Positions 13,272 to 37,643 of a DNA stretch of 64,000 bases are shown piece by piece; position 1 is the stretch's first letter, and each line of letters starts with the position of its first letter. The position numbers were made by a program, and so were the translations under genes. Source of the stretch: Sediminibacterium sp. Gen4 (GTDB taxonomy: Bacteria > Bacteroidota > Bacteroidia > Chitinophagales > Chitinophagaceae); the NCBI GenBank assembly GCA_013391385.1, contig JACBFI010000010.1, positions 37,686 to 101,685 of the forward strand, given 5' to 3'. The notes under the pieces are model-generated. The model had not been told where the DNA came from and made no database searches. It saw nothing but the letters and a program-made list of their open reading frames with translations.

Positions 13272-13301
13272 TTGAAAATATTCTCACAATTCTTATATTT
13301 G
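13272..13301 (+). promoter_or_regulatory. Promoter of the tRNA-Arg(ACG) locus
   Basis: TTG (13272-13274), a 19-bp spacer and TATATTTG (13294-13301) match the Bacteroidota consensus TTG-N19-TAnnTTTG. Transcription should start near 13308, so the two relic units at 13334-13446 would be part of the tRNA precursor. Confidence 0.75.
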
Positions 13302-13333
13302 CAGCCCGTTAAGGGAATCTCCTTTAAAGGAAT

Positions 13334-13446
13334 GGCTTTGAGCTCAATCCGCCTCAGGCGGAAGCATCAGACGCCGAATGTTTTGAATAGGCTTCACAGC
13401 TCAATCCGCCTTAGGCGGAAGCATCAGACGCCGAATGTTTTGAATA
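13334..13446 (+). repeat. Two tandem tRNA-like 5' relic units with palindromic D-loop replacement
   Basis: Unit 1 is 13334-13389 (56 bp) and unit 2 is 13390-13446 (57 bp). Each begins GGCT like the tRNA that follows, contains the D-arm pieces AGCTCAA and GCATC, and ends GTTTTGAATA. Where the tRNA has the D-loop bases CTGAATAGA, the units have the palindrome TCCGCCTCAGGCGGA (13348-13362) or TCCGCCTTAGGCGGA (13405-13419). The units therefore read as 5' halves of tRNA-Arg with the loop swapped for a hairpin. They lie between the promoter and the mature tRNA. The relation to the tRNA is seen by alignment; function is unknown. Confidence 0.8.
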
Positions 13447-13520
13447 GGCTGCGTAGCTCAACTGAATAGAGCATCTGACTACGGATCAGAAGGTTTTAGG
13501 TTTGAATCCTAACGCGGTCA
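13447..13520 (+). tRNA. tRNA-Arg (anticodon ACG)
   Basis: A 74-nt cloverleaf: acceptor GGCTGCG with CGCGGTC, D-arm in TAGCTCAACTGAATAGAGC, anticodon stem TCTGA/TCAGA around the loop CTACGGA (ACG), T-arm TTAGG/CCTAA, discriminator A. CCA is not encoded. The acceptor contains two wobble pairs (G2.U and U4.G). The 3' strand would match GACCGCG perfectly, so the 5' strand appears to have been changed by the upstream GGCT-starting repeat. All other parts are canonical, so it is probably functional. Confidence 0.92.
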
Positions 13521-13530
13521 CAGAAAGAAA

Positions 13531-13561
13531 GGGTTAACTAGAAATAGTTAACTCTTTTTTT
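13531..13561 (+). terminator. Terminator after tRNA-Arg(ACG)
   Basis: The arms GGGTTAACTA (13531-13540) and TAGTTAACTC (13545-13554) pair over 10 bp with one G.U. The loop is GAAA and a T-run follows to 13561. Confidence 0.85.
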
Positions 13562-13585
13562 ATGCCCCCTACTAAAACAAAAGCC

Positions 13586-13834
13586 ATGTATTACACTTAC
13601 GTCTTACAATCACAACAGAAGAATATCTTGTACAAAGGGTCTACTTCGAATCTTGAGTTAAGAATTATTCAACATAATGATGGACTCGTGGCATTTACTA
13701 AAAAATATAGACCATGGGTTCTCGTTTACCATGAAACATTTTCAACCAGAAGTGAGGCTATGGCTAGAGAGAAATTTTTTAAATCTGGTAAGGGACGTGA
13801 ATGGTTAAAACAAATCATCGATAAATCTGTATAG
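13586..13834 (+). CDS. Small GIY-YIG nuclease domain protein
   Basis: An 82-residue protein from the ATG at 13586; an earlier in-frame ATG at 13562 lies right on the tRNA terminator. MYYTYVLQSQ followed by LYKGSTSNLELR is the GIY-YIG core (here YYTYVL/LYKGST), then the conserved Arg, and HETFSTRSEAMAREKFFKSGKGREWL with the catalytic Glu region. This is the stand-alone YhbQ/UPF0213-like form, a single-domain DNA endonuclease of unknown biological role. It sits between a functional tRNA and a tRNA relic, and its stop codon TAG is formed by the relic sequence at 13832-13834. That suggests it arrived or duplicated together with the tRNA-like sequence. Confidence 0.85.
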   Translation: MYYTYVLQSQQKNILYKGSTSNLELRIIQHNDGLVAFTKKYRPWVLVYHETFSTRSEAMAREKFFKSGKGREWLKQIIDKSV

Positions 13835-13848
13835 CTCAATCCGCCTCA

Positions 13849-14747
13849 GAAGCTGTTTAAATTTTAAGTGTATAGATGGTTGAGCATCTGCCTTATAGCA
13901 GATAATTCTATAATAGTTTCAGCAGTTTGCGGCTGTCTTTCATACAATTTTGCATTTCGCCTGTTAGTTTCAAACCAAGCAAATGTTCTTTCTACTACCC
14001 ATCTTCTGGGAGAGACTTTGCCTTCTTTAAGATCAGAGCGTTTGACGATTTCTAACTCATACCCATTAATTGGAGTATTACTAAGCTGGTTTTTCCCAGG
14101 CAATTGATAACCTCCGTCCACAAATATTTTTTTTACATTCTTCCAATTCCTACTCAAACACGCTGAGAGAAGCCTGCCGCCATGCCTATCGGCTATTGCT
14201 GCCGAGTGTACTTTTACACACAGAAGCATACCTGTAGTATCTACAATAATATGCCGTTTCATTCCTTTAATGCGTTTTCCTGAGTCATATCCCGTATCCA
14301 CCGAACTACTCACTAATGTACTCTTTACAGATTGGGCATCCATTATGCCAGCTGTAGGTTGACTCTTCTTGCCTGATCGTCTTCTGTATCTTTTCACTAA
14401 AGAGCATCTAATACGCTCAAATGTCCCGTCACTCTTCCATTTTGAAAAATAATAATAAACAATTTGCCAGTTGGGAAAGCTCGATGGGAGCATACGCCAC
14501 TGACAGCCTGTTTTTATTAAATAAAAAATTGCATTTATAATTTCTCGAAGACTATATCTACGTTTTCTGTAATCATTCAAAAAAGCTTTAATAACTTGCC
14601 ATTGGCTGTTGTTTAAGTTGGTAGGATAACCTGTCATTTTAATAAGATTTGGTCATCTTCTAAAACGACATTTCCTATTGACAACAACAGCTTTTTTTAT
14701 CCACTTTTACACACAGGTTACTACTAATTAGATTTTTAAACAGCTTC
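13849..14747. mobile_element. IS5-family insertion sequence (IS1031/IS427-like), 899 bp, intact
   Basis: The ends GAAGCTGTTTAAA (13849-13861) and TTTAAACAGCTTC (14735-14747) are perfect 13-bp inverted repeats. The target duplication is TCA at 13846-13848 and 14748-14750, a TNA-type triplet as reported for the IS1031 group. The insertion is exactly in the centre of the palindrome TCCGCCTCAGGCGGA, so the empty site can be rebuilt from other copies in this window. One intact transposase gene fills the element. Confidence 0.92.
13864..14637 (-). CDS. IS5-family transposase
   Basis: A 257-residue DDE transposase in one uninterrupted frame; many relatives need a frameshift. The N-terminal DUF4096-like part contains LNNSQWQVIKAFL and TGCQWRMLPSSFPNWQIVYY. 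The catalytic acids are Asp in IMDAQSV, Asp in FVDGGYQ and Glu in RRWVVERTFAWFE. It cuts and joins the element's inverted repeats. The start at 14637 leaves 110 bp to the right end; the stop is only 15 bp from the left end. Confidence 0.93.
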   Translation of the reverse strand: MTGYPTNLNNSQWQVIKAFLNDYRKRRYSLREIINAIFYLIKTGCQWRMLPSSFPNWQIVYYYFSKWKSDGTFERIRCSLVKRYRRRSGKKSQPTAGIMDAQSVKSTLVSSSVDTGYDSGKRIKGMKRHIIVDTTGMLLCVKVHSAAIADRHGGRLLSACLSRNWKNVKKIFVDGGYQLPGKNQLSNTPINGYELEIVKRSDLKEGKVSPRRWVVERTFAWFETNRRNAKLYERQPQTAETIIELSAIRQMLNHLYT

Positions 14748-14824
14748 TCAGGCGGAAGCATCCCGACTATGTCGGGAAGGTTTTAGGTTTTCCGCCGCGA
14801 CGGATAACGTGGTCACTTTAAAAG

Positions 14825-36000: not shown

Positions 36001-36052
36001 TGACCGGTAGTCAGTCCGCCTCAGGCGGAAGCAACTGCTACTTGTTTTGAAT
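36001..36052 (+). repeat. 5' relic of tRNA-Arg(UCU) with palindromic D-loop replacement
   Basis: GACCGGTAG-TCAG and GCAACTGC match the first half of the tRNA that begins at 36060. The D-loop bases are replaced by TCCGCCTCAGGCGGA (36015-36029), the same palindrome as at 13348. GTTTTGAATA follows in both loci. The relic copies its own downstream tRNA, not the ACG one. Confidence 0.75.
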
Positions 36053-37643
36053 ATAAATTGGACCGGTAGCTCAGCTGGATAGAGCAACTGCCTTCTAAGC
36101 AGTAGGTCATTGGTTCGAATCCAATCCGGTTCACCCAAGTGGATAAATCGATTTTCTCATCGGTTTGTCCACTTTTTTTTTCTCCAAAACCCTCTCCCAT
36201 ATTGAATATTAACTGAACAGCTTCGTTCACTTTTGTGGTTCGAAAATTCAAACCTTCAAAAACCAATTTTTCAGGAAATATCGAACCAACGACCTTTCTG
36301 CGGTTAGAAACAGTTCCATTCTCAAAAATCTCATTCAAATTAGACAGGTTATGAATCGCTTTTCGTATTTGATTACTGATATTAATCCGCTTCTTGGAAA
36401 GCTCAAAAATTTCAGCTTCCAGTCGTTCTATTTCAGTTTCACACCCTTTTCTTACTTCGTGGTAATCTGTCTTATCAATTTCGTCAATAATAAATTTGCC
36501 TCTTGCCTTATTTATCTGATCCTGTAATTCCGAAACACGGGTATTCAATTTTTGTATCTCAATATTATTTGAAGATGAATTTTTCTTAAACAAGTCATTT
36601 ACAACTTCAGCATAGATGTCTGCCATTCCAGGTTTAGGAATGAACTTTTTTAATTCAGAATTAAACTTTTCGTTTACTTCCAGTGCCTTAAATCTTATTC
36701 CGCATTTACTATTACAATGGTAGTAATGACTATAAGATGACCTGCCTTTTGAAGAACTGGCAGTAAGACTTTTTCTGCAACGGGGACACTCCAAATATCC
36801 ACGCAGGAAAAACCTCTCAGGAGTTTCTTCACTGGTTTTTCTAACCCGCTTACCCCCATTTAATCTATCCTGAACATCAATAAAAAGTTTCTCAGAAATA
36901 ATTGGATCATGATTACCCTTCACGATACAATCCGGCTCATCCTTGTAGCCCCTTAGAAAAATCTTACCATAATAGGCCGGGTTCCGCAATACGTTCCAGA
37001 AATGATTCTTACCACAGCTCAGCCCCTTTTCTTTTGCTAACCTATATACCTCTTCAATATGGAGCTGACGGTTTACAATCGTTTCAAATGCCCATTTAAT
37101 GATTTCTGCTTTTGGAGGATCAACCGCAATGTATTTTTTCCCTTCAGGTGTGGTTCTGTTGATGTATCCAATAGGTGCCCCATTCATATACCTACCCTCT
37201 TTTACCGCCCTTCGCATACCGTTACGAACATTTATTGCACGTCTGTCATTTTCTACTTCGGGTGATGTTAGGTAAATGCCCAACATGATTTTGTTTTCAG
37301 GAATATCAAGGTCTAAAGGTTGTTCAATAGCACAGGGTTCAACGCCTAATTTGCGAAGTAGATTAATCATCTGGAAAGCATCCGCTGCATTTCTGCTGAA
37401 CCGATCCCATTTGGTAAATAAAATCTGCTGGACTTGACCACGTTTTGATCGGTAGGATTCCAGAATCTTTTTCCATGCTGGTCTCTGAAATGTCTTGGCA
37501 GAAAAATCCTCGTAAATAACGTCGCGGATCTGGATATTCTTGTAAGCACAATACTTACGTAATCTTTCTTCCTGGTCTCTTTGGGAATACCCTTTTTCGG
37601 CTTGCTCATCCGTGCTCACCCGGATGTATAGATCTGCCCTCAT
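36021..37643 (-). CDS. Large serine recombinase of the integrative element
   Basis: A 540-residue serine integrase. The resolvase domain has YIRVSTDEQ (nucleophile Ser10), the LFTKWDRFSRN helix and LTSPEVENDRRA. A recombinase domain follows (GAPIGY, HFWNVLRNPAYYGKIFL), then a zinc ribbon (ECPRCRKSLTAS...YYHCNSKCG) and a long coiled coil near 355-440. The last ~37 residues (WVNRIGFEPMTYCLEGSCS onward) are encoded by the antisense of tRNA-Arg(UCU) and the relic, and the TGA stop lies in the relic palindrome. In the excised circle the C-terminus must differ. It integrates and excises the element. Confidence 0.9.
   Translation of the reverse strand: MRADLYIRVSTDEQAEKGYSQRDQEERLRKYCAYKNIQIRDVIYEDFSAKTFQRPAWKKILESYRSKRGQVQQILFTKWDRFSRNAADAFQMINLLRKLGVEPCAIEQPLDLDIPENKIMLGIYLTSPEVENDRRAINVRNGMRRAVKEGRYMNGAPIGYINRTTPEGKKYIAVDPPKAEIIKWAFETIVNRQLHIEEVYRLAKEKGLSCGKNHFWNVLRNPAYYGKIFLRGYKDEPDCIVKGNHDPIISEKLFIDVQDRLNGGKRVRKTSEETPERFFLRGYLECPRCRKSLTASSSKGRSSYSHYYHCNSKCGIRFKALEVNEKFNSELKKFIPKPGMADIYAEVVNDLFKKNSSSNNIEIQKLNTRVSELQDQINKARGKFIIDEIDKTDYHEVRKGCETEIERLEAEIFELSKKRINISNQIRKAIHNLSNLNEIFENGTVSNRRKVVGSIFPEKLVFEGLNFRTTKVNEAVQLIFNMGEGFGEKKSGQTDEKIDLSTWVNRIGFEPMTYCLEGSCSIQLSYRSNLYSKQVAVASA
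36060..36133 (+). tRNA. tRNA-Arg (anticodon UCU)
   Basis: A 74-nt cloverleaf: acceptor GGACCGG with CCGGTTC, D-arm TAGCTCAGCTGGATAGAGCA, anticodon stem ACTGC/GCAGT around CTTCTAA (TCT), T-arm ATTGG/CCAAT with TTCGAAT, discriminator A, no encoded CCA. The recombinase gene of the adjacent element reads across it on the other strand. It serves as the integration site of that element and stays complete. Confidence 0.96.
36110..36140. other. Likely left attachment region of the integrative element (tRNA 3' end)
   Basis: The recombinase gene lies directly beside the tRNA 3' half and element genes follow without a gap. The crossover is therefore probably within the T-arm/acceptor sequence. No second copy of this sequence was found by eye up to 64 kb, so the exact core is unknown. 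Confidence 0.5.

Follow-up and report, generated by a model that had tools for sequence, protein, structure and literature searches.

Introduction

Seg proteins possess a separate C-terminal DNA-binding region besides their nuclease domain. In the main text of a report on SegB of T-even phages, this protein is described as a free-standing, tRNA-linked GIY-YIG homing endonuclease which cuts inside tRNA genes and drives the tandem amplification of tRNA segments (PMC13096335). Palindromes, hairpins or pseudogenes in tRNA copies are not mentioned in that main text (PMC13096335). Mobile-looking palindromes are described for organelles: in the passages concerned, the repetitive hairpin elements of sponges have conserved stems and variable loops (PMC2800124), and in Volvox a block of palindromes lies inside an rRNA module, the authors suggesting that endonucleases may move such palindromes (PMC2670323). 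SLX1 is presented in the respective passages as a structure-specific nuclease (PMC8287910).

Here we describe a tRNA-Arg(ACG) locus of Sediminibacterium sp. Gen4 in which a short GIY-YIG gene lies among palindrome-bearing tRNA copies. The window was the whole analysed stretch of 64,000 nucleotides. Among the matches listed from the open-access literature (titles and beginnings of abstracts, with few subscription journals), none described palindrome-bearing tRNA copies together with tRNA-linked genes of the GIY-YIG type.

Results

Structure of the tRNA-Arg(ACG) locus

The locus consists of a promoter motif, copies 1 and 2 of the tRNA, the intact tRNA-Arg(ACG), a terminator-like hairpin, the GIY-YIG gene and copy 3, in this order (Table 1). 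The original prediction had placed two tandem units of 56 and 57 bp between the promoter and the tRNA and had proposed that a palindrome stands in each in place of the D-loop. Both statements were borne out: the units lie in those positions, they are 93% identical in the 57-nt register, and in each of them 8 nt of the D region are replaced by TCCGCCTYAGGCGGA (the TCCGCC palindrome), flanked by AGCTCAA and AGCATC of the adjacent tRNA-Arg(ACG). Shuffles of the window gave an expected TCCGCCTYAGGCGGA count of 0.02 (at most two mismatches). The term 5'-half relics was right in that the units are decayed tRNA copies but proved too narrow: both units keep the T-arm-like remnant GTTTTGAATA (by eye), and we therefore read them as whole tRNA copies minus part of the anticodon/T region. 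The extent 13334 to 13446 covered both units, but the feature is wider, as a third tRNA copy lies in two parts downstream; this copy and the nuclease gene had been overlooked. A third exact copy of TCCGCCTYAGGCGGA in the window was found in a decayed copy directly before tRNA-Arg(TCT).

Table 1 Features of the two tRNA-Arg loci in the window
Feature	Position	Strand	Evidence
Promoter-like motif TATATTTGC of tRNA-Arg(ACG)	13294..13302	+	Located before this tRNA in most of 26 relatives
Decayed tRNA-Arg(ACG) copy 1, D-loop replaced	13334..13389	+	Sequence comparison
Palindrome TCCGCCTCAGGCGGA	13348..13362	.	Pattern match
Decayed tRNA-Arg(ACG) copy 2, D-loop replaced	13390..13446	+	Sequence comparison
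Palindrome TCCGCCTTAGGCGGA	13405..13419	.	Pattern match
Intact tRNA-Arg(ACG)	13447..13521	+	ARAGORN; letters identical in relative L039
Terminator-like hairpin with T-run, separating the tRNA from the nuclease gene	13531..13561	+	By eye
Gene of the GIY-YIG nuclease, 90 aa, or 82 aa with the more probable start at 13586	13562..13834	+	ORF list, Pfam
Decayed tRNA-Arg copy 3, first part: TAGCTCAA and half of the D-position palindrome	13832..13849	+	Sequence comparison
IS5-family insertion sequence inside the D-position palindrome of copy 3	13850..14746	-	Ends by eye
Decayed tRNA-Arg copy 3, second part: rest of the D palindrome, anticodon and T palindromes	14747..14816	+	Sequence comparison
Copy 3 anticodon-arm palindrome TCCCGACTATGTCGGGA	14761-14777	+	Replaces 17 nt with 17 nt (by eye)
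Copy 3 imperfect T-loop palindrome	about 14791-14804	+	Sequence comparison
Decayed tRNA-Arg(TCT) copy with TCCGCCTCAGGCGGA at 36015-36029	36002..36058	+	Pattern match
Intact tRNA-Arg(TCT)	36059..36137	+	ARAGORN

In relatives, the TATATTTGC motif, which we take to be the Bacteroidota promoter, is followed almost immediately by tRNA-Arg(ACG). As they are located between this motif and the tRNA, the two units are probably part of the tRNA leader. We judge it unlikely that the hairpin-bearing copies are functional RNAs which belong to the nuclease transcript or to the tRNA leader and which selection maintains for a role in control or processing or because they shield the copy from the nuclease. 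The leader together with the tRNA did fold better than shuffles (z -4.3), but palindromic sequence alone raises fold scores, and the fold paired the two palindromes with each other and produced no common shape, and the leader was therefore not read as a cloverleaf or device. The palindromes differ and yet stay perfect at equivalent sites, such as the Val arm in our genome and in L231 or the Asp site in our genome, L161, L168, L171 and L217, and many downstream copies keep the T-arm and the 3' strand letter-perfect, as functional RNAs might; against this, the copies are truncated differently from locus to locus.

The stop codon of the GIY-YIG gene is located at the junction with copy 3, which has palindromes at the D, anticodon and T positions, the first of them split by the IS5-family element (transposase 13864-14637; CTCAG on both sides). 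Elements that integrate at tRNA genes would carry an integrase gene next to the rebuilt tRNA; in the ORF list, the interval from the tRNA to copy 3 contains the GIY-YIG gene and the transposase of the later IS, and Pfam was applied to these two ORFs. Some insertion sequences target REP sequences, and this element, sitting in the centre of the palindrome, resembles them.

The nuclease and its locus in relatives

The protein encoded beside tRNA-Arg(ACG) matched Pfam PF01541 (E 1.1e-16), and the columns of the catalytic residues Y, Y, R, H and E were invariant in the alignment. The GIY-YIG domain covers the short ORFs of our genome almost wholly; their nearest solved structures, according to profile matches to 1ywl, 1zg2, 7cq2 and others, are UPF0213 and SLX1. 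Comparison with the near relative L096, whose nuclease is 95% identical, indicated that the protein is under purifying selection (pN 0.020, pS 0.164, 12 differences only). A phage origin was rejected: all 11 phage records showed less than 60% identity, with no close phage homologue among them.

The tRNA-Arg(ACG) loci of 26 relatives (25 from the same genus) are clean empty sites: a GIY-YIG ORF, such a palindrome and a second tRNA copy were absent from all 26. The L096 locus contains copy 3 with the D and T palindromes and a natural-looking anticodon arm at the place of the palindrome of our genome. Since L096 has a natural-looking arm there, we infer the direction of the change and consider that the anticodon arm of copy 3 was probably replaced recently in our genome. 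The Chitinophagaceae MAG L097 (nuclease 64% identical) exhibits the same layout, i.e. copy, tRNA, nuclease and copy, with TCCGCC palindromes in the D-loop of both tRNA copies. The intact tRNA beside the nuclease gene is identical to that of L039, a genome without the nuclease. This counts against a simple cutting model, because sequence-only cutting would also cut the carrier, whose immunity is not obvious.

Short GIY-YIG genes beside tRNA genes

Our genome contained 11 GIY-YIG matches, of which nine were short ORFs of 80-92 aa, and all nine lay beside a tRNA and/or its partial copies. Seven were situated between an intact tRNA and its partial copy (Asp, Met, Arg, Met, Ser, Val and Ser) and the remaining two, in the tandem arrays of Asp and Val, had a partial copy on either side. 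Tandem partial copies were present at the Arg, Val and Asp loci. In general, the short GIY-YIG gene lies immediately behind, or before, an intact tRNA of the same strand, and the partial copy on the far side of the nuclease gene was often accompanied by the terminator of the tRNA and often tandem.

In 89 loci of order-level relatives (29 plus 60 further ones), drawn from the best-scoring matches listed in 120 genomes, so that the fractions describe strong matches, a tRNA was found within 100 bp in 44 of the 60 loci with an ORF of up to 95 aa (same strand in 44/44), in 3 of the 26 with an ORF of 96-130 aa and in none of the three with larger ORFs. Five more loci of the shortest class had a tRNA within 700 bp, and six without a tRNA were at contig ends. 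A search for rRNA or other Rfam hosts at 20 loci of the 96-130 aa class revealed only two distant tRNAs. Four GIY-YIG ORFs of 96-118 aa (L165, L175, L185 and L226) lie between non-tRNA direct repeats and are possibly a sister element with another target.

The layout was also found, among 51 loci collected by protein similarity, in Bacteroidota, in close phyla and in one Patescibacteria MAG (L137). The last locus comprises tRNA-Arg, the GIY-YIG gene and a 5' tRNA copy ending in palindromes. Loci of the Desulfobacteria type had no tRNA within 700 bp among the matches listed.

For 39 of the 62 proteins, the nearest protein was linked to a tRNA of the same isotype, compared with a mean of 7.9 and a maximum of 18 in 2000 shuffles, and the agreement persisted in 27 of 49 nearest pairs with an identity below 70%. 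A quick tree of the 62 proteins required 18 isotype changes vs a minimum of 34 in 500 shuffles. Shared descent at one locus could explain this agreement as well as homing specificity.

Positions of palindromes in tRNA copies

Palindromes were mapped automatically (perfect stem of at least 5, loop of at most 6, both flanks matching the tRNA). A palindrome was thus placed in the tRNA copy in 42 of 70 GIY-tRNA pairs, i.e. in 32 of 56 pairs that were not preselected and in 10 of 14 chosen for a visible tRNA. The nine entries from our genome represent eight distinct ORFs (L031 is the same ORF as L026); the ninth ORF was read separately. Palindromes were mapped with the real flanks in 30 of 54 cases, with reversed flanks in 0 of 54 and with the flanks of another locus in 5 of 54. 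A palindrome count which included terminators was left out of account. Among the 28 pairs without a mapped palindrome, some contained imperfect ones by eye (L030, L034, L186) and some none.

When two entries of our genome which overlapped others (L031, L032) were dropped, 56 palindromes at 40 loci were distributed over the anticodon arm (35), the D region (15), the T region (3), the variable region (2) and the acceptor (1). Exactly 17 nt, which is the whole arm, had been removed in 21 of the 35 anticodon-arm events; 11 further ones had lost 10 or 12 nt, mostly starting just after the base 3' of the anticodon. Clean insertions with 0 nt lost accounted for three D-loop events at two loci. The sequence began with TC and ended with GA in 36 of the 56 palindromes.

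Palindrome families and their hosts

TCCGCCTYAGGCGGA was present in 21 exact copies in the 3.52-Mb genome, whereas the reversed-pattern control gave 0; with up to two mismatches there were 49/44 matches vs 1/3 for the control. At least one exact copy was detected in 10 of the 120 genomes searched, our own included. The hosts, assigned by eye, were tRNA copies (6), 5S copies (2) and RNase P RNA (1), and 12 of the 21 copies lay outside recognised RNA genes, mostly near AT-rich repeats and one in a terminator. Behind the single intact 5S gene found lie decayed 5S copies in which TCCGCC is part of a hairpin (contig ends). A TPP riboswitch carries a palindrome copy with one mismatch.

The genome-wide check for enrichment near tRNA came out positive: five of the 21 exact copies were located within 150 bp of a tRNA match, compared with 0.43% of the genome (binomial 2.7e-8, the tandem copies not being independent). 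The proposal of a mobile palindrome targeting tRNA loops thus largely holds for structured-RNA genes, but the D-loop is not its sole site, the anticodon arm is the commonest one, and the 12 copies mentioned above lie elsewhere. Overall, neither complementarity nor a hairpin was seen in the flanks of these 12 (Fisher p 0.22), the one clear case being L007, the copy in the terminator, and a pure loop-targeting rule was not supported overall by them.

Many intergenic TCCGCC copies (L001, L013, L016, L017, L020 and L021) lie in or adjoin AT-rich TTTTCAAATTTTCAAATT repeats, at times with an apparent duplication of 2-3 nt at the junctions. Two others, L005 (C3:727) and L018 (C52:107626), share an identical context, a repeated sequence with TCCGCC and TCCGCCGCGGCGGA palindromes; it matched no Rfam family at the gathering threshold and gave one chance-level match under the cut-off. 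In another genome (L080, G031:C516), a TCCGCC palindrome was seen by eye in a sequence resembling the 3' part of tmRNA. Neither ARAGORN nor Rfam called a tmRNA there, and this locus was left out of the counts.

Three palindrome families were distinguished in our genome, including TCCCGACNNNNGTCGGGA and CCCCACARTAYTGTGGGG. TCCCGACNNNNGTCGGGA had 24 matches with up to two mismatches (control 5), nine of them exact, and all nine exact ones lie in tRNA copies (five of Val, two of Met and two of Arg), each time in place of the anticodon arm. CCCCACARTAYTGTGGGG was found in five places with up to two mismatches (control 0), all five in RNA genes or tRNA copies: RNase P RNA (2), tRNA-Asp copies (2) and a tRNA-Arg-like copy (1, by eye).

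In the RNase P RNA of our genome (Rfam, 253 bits), two helices contain CCCCACA-type palindromes, a third contains TTCGCCTAAGGCGAA, and TCCGCCTCAGGCGGA lies next to a fourth. Most of the 29 congeners have short tips at these positions and two have TTCCGCC palindromes in two helices, in a comparison in which the pattern for P8 (helix names being our presumed labels) failed in 7 of 30 sequences.

These data bear on the possibility that the palindromes arise in place, template switching perfecting existing hairpins with no mobility, which we regard as very unlikely. It would agree with the replacement of the 17-nt arm by palindromes of 10-19 nt at the same place and with the difference in one arm only between our genome and L096. 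In-place perfecting would not give one sequence in unrelated hosts, and it is therefore disfavoured by the occurrence of TCCCGAC in Val, Met and Arg copies, of CCCCACA in RNase P RNA and tRNA copies and of TCCGCC in tRNA, 5S and RNase P RNA sequences; the three clean insertions also speak against it.

Palindromes and nuclease genes

The association was examined by counting all PF01541 matches, UvrC included. Within the genus, the TCCGCC carriers had more GIY-YIG matches than the non-carriers (6 vs 67 genomes, p 8e-4), with 11, 5, 6, 2, 4 and 1 matches per carrier vs a mean of 1.5. The link was not significant in the other order-level genomes (p 0.16, n=47). G044 had twelve GIY-YIG matches and zero TCCGCC copies; G095 (72% complete) had five palindromes but one GIY-YIG match.

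The genome also contains a single Y1 (RAYT-like) transposase gene (L301/L304, G000:C59:89901-90239), preceded by two palindromes, TCCGGGCTGAAGCCCGGA and TCCGGACTTTAGTCCGGA, with the common tag TTTAAATAGC. The palindromes of this RAYT, TCCGGACTWWAGTCCGGA with an adjoining TAGC tag, are unlike the three families, and the Y1 gene with its palindromes is a separate classical REP system. The RAYT was rejected as the mover of the tRNA-copy palindromes because its flanking palindrome family differs; it is kept only within the following alternative. Two independent things may be combined here, a tRNA-linked GIY-YIG homing gene which duplicates tRNA pieces and unrelated REP-like palindromes which another enzyme moves and which settle in the copies as free hairpin-rich DNA. 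We consider this possible but rather improbable. Palindromes far from any nuclease gene, the case of G095 and the very presence of a Y1 transposase argue for such independence, whereas the distinct palindromes of that transposase and the confinement of two families wholly to RNA genes or tRNA copies (9/9 and 5/5) argue against it.

Discussion

We interpret the locus as a SegB-like, tRNA-linked GIY-YIG selfish element with its debris, in which mobile hairpins enter the loops and arms of structured-RNA genes; the chances for and against this reading seem to us evenly balanced. Much the same balance applies to the two units upstream of the tRNA, which may be footprints of the element rather than a device built into the tRNA leader. 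We infer that the nuclease would be the mover of the hairpins.

Phage SegB offers the closest model of how the element may work. The nuclease might nick or break the tRNA gene, either like SegB or at hairpin and branch structures like its relative SLX1. Repair would then copy the nuclease gene along with a section of the tRNA, with an intact tRNA and a displaced copy as the outcome, and repeated breaks could generate tandem copies, including the two 57-bp units described here. Free of function, the copies would accept hairpins: the hairpin arm in the DNA might be cut at its base and a different hairpin put in its place, the agent being either this nuclease or template switching from hairpin to hairpin. 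In RNA genes that still work, such an exchange would survive only at tolerant tips, as in RNase P RNA, but the TCCGCC copy in that RNA lies at the side of a helix and not at a tip, which counts against our interpretation. Tentatively, and with distinctly less confidence, we suggest that the short tRNA-linked GIY-YIG nucleases could represent new mobile DNA with arm-for-arm hairpin exchange, cut at the hairpin base, the arms serving as cassettes common to tRNA copies and RNase P RNA.

If the interpretation as a selfish element is true, a widespread, unnoticed family of selfish genes in Bacteroidota and their neighbours lives off tRNA genes, and its loci preserve a direct record of hairpin excision and replacement in RNA genes. 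It would provide a testable answer to an old problem, the way in which short palindromes move and in which RNase P RNA and other RNAs gain or exchange their peripheral helices. It would also account for tRNA 'pseudogenes' and odd tRNA leaders near small genes annotated as 'GIY-YIG nuclease family'.

Among described systems, the fungal double-hairpin elements and the yeast GC clusters are comparable mobile-looking palindromes. Like the repetitive hairpin elements of organelles, the palindromes studied here occur within RNA genes, in RNase P RNA, the TPP riboswitch and tRNA and 5S copies. Unlike in those elements, tRNA arms are swapped precisely here; the passages on sponge and Volvox describe no such swaps (PMC2800124; PMC2670323). 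REP-RAYT systems, as far as the parts of the literature consulted describe them, share with this case short dispersed bacterial palindromes in many copies (here 21 exact ones, control 0) and a nuclease, there of the Y1 type, suspected as the mover; they differ in the nuclease fold, and the palindromes here lie inside structured-RNA genes. The Rickettsia palindromic elements are likewise palindromic and inserted within bacterial genes, according to partial sources. They are far longer, protein genes being their best-known hosts, and we know of no tRNA-linked nuclease associated with them. SLX1 and UPF0213 resemble the nuclease in profile, SLX1 being a eukaryotic repair enzyme which needs SLX4 and has no known link to tRNA genes; by analogy, a cut directed by structure, of the kind that SLX1 makes, would agree with the arm-exact replacements. 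With SegB, the nuclease shares the GIY-YIG domain with its conserved residues and the position of the gene beside tRNA genes. Unlike the phage-borne SegB, the genes described here are chromosomal and encode 80-95 aa, essentially the nuclease domain alone. The separate C-terminal DNA-binding region of Seg proteins is absent from the ORFs of 80-92 aa in our genome, and we therefore say that the element 'works like' SegB and not that it 'is' of the SegB type.
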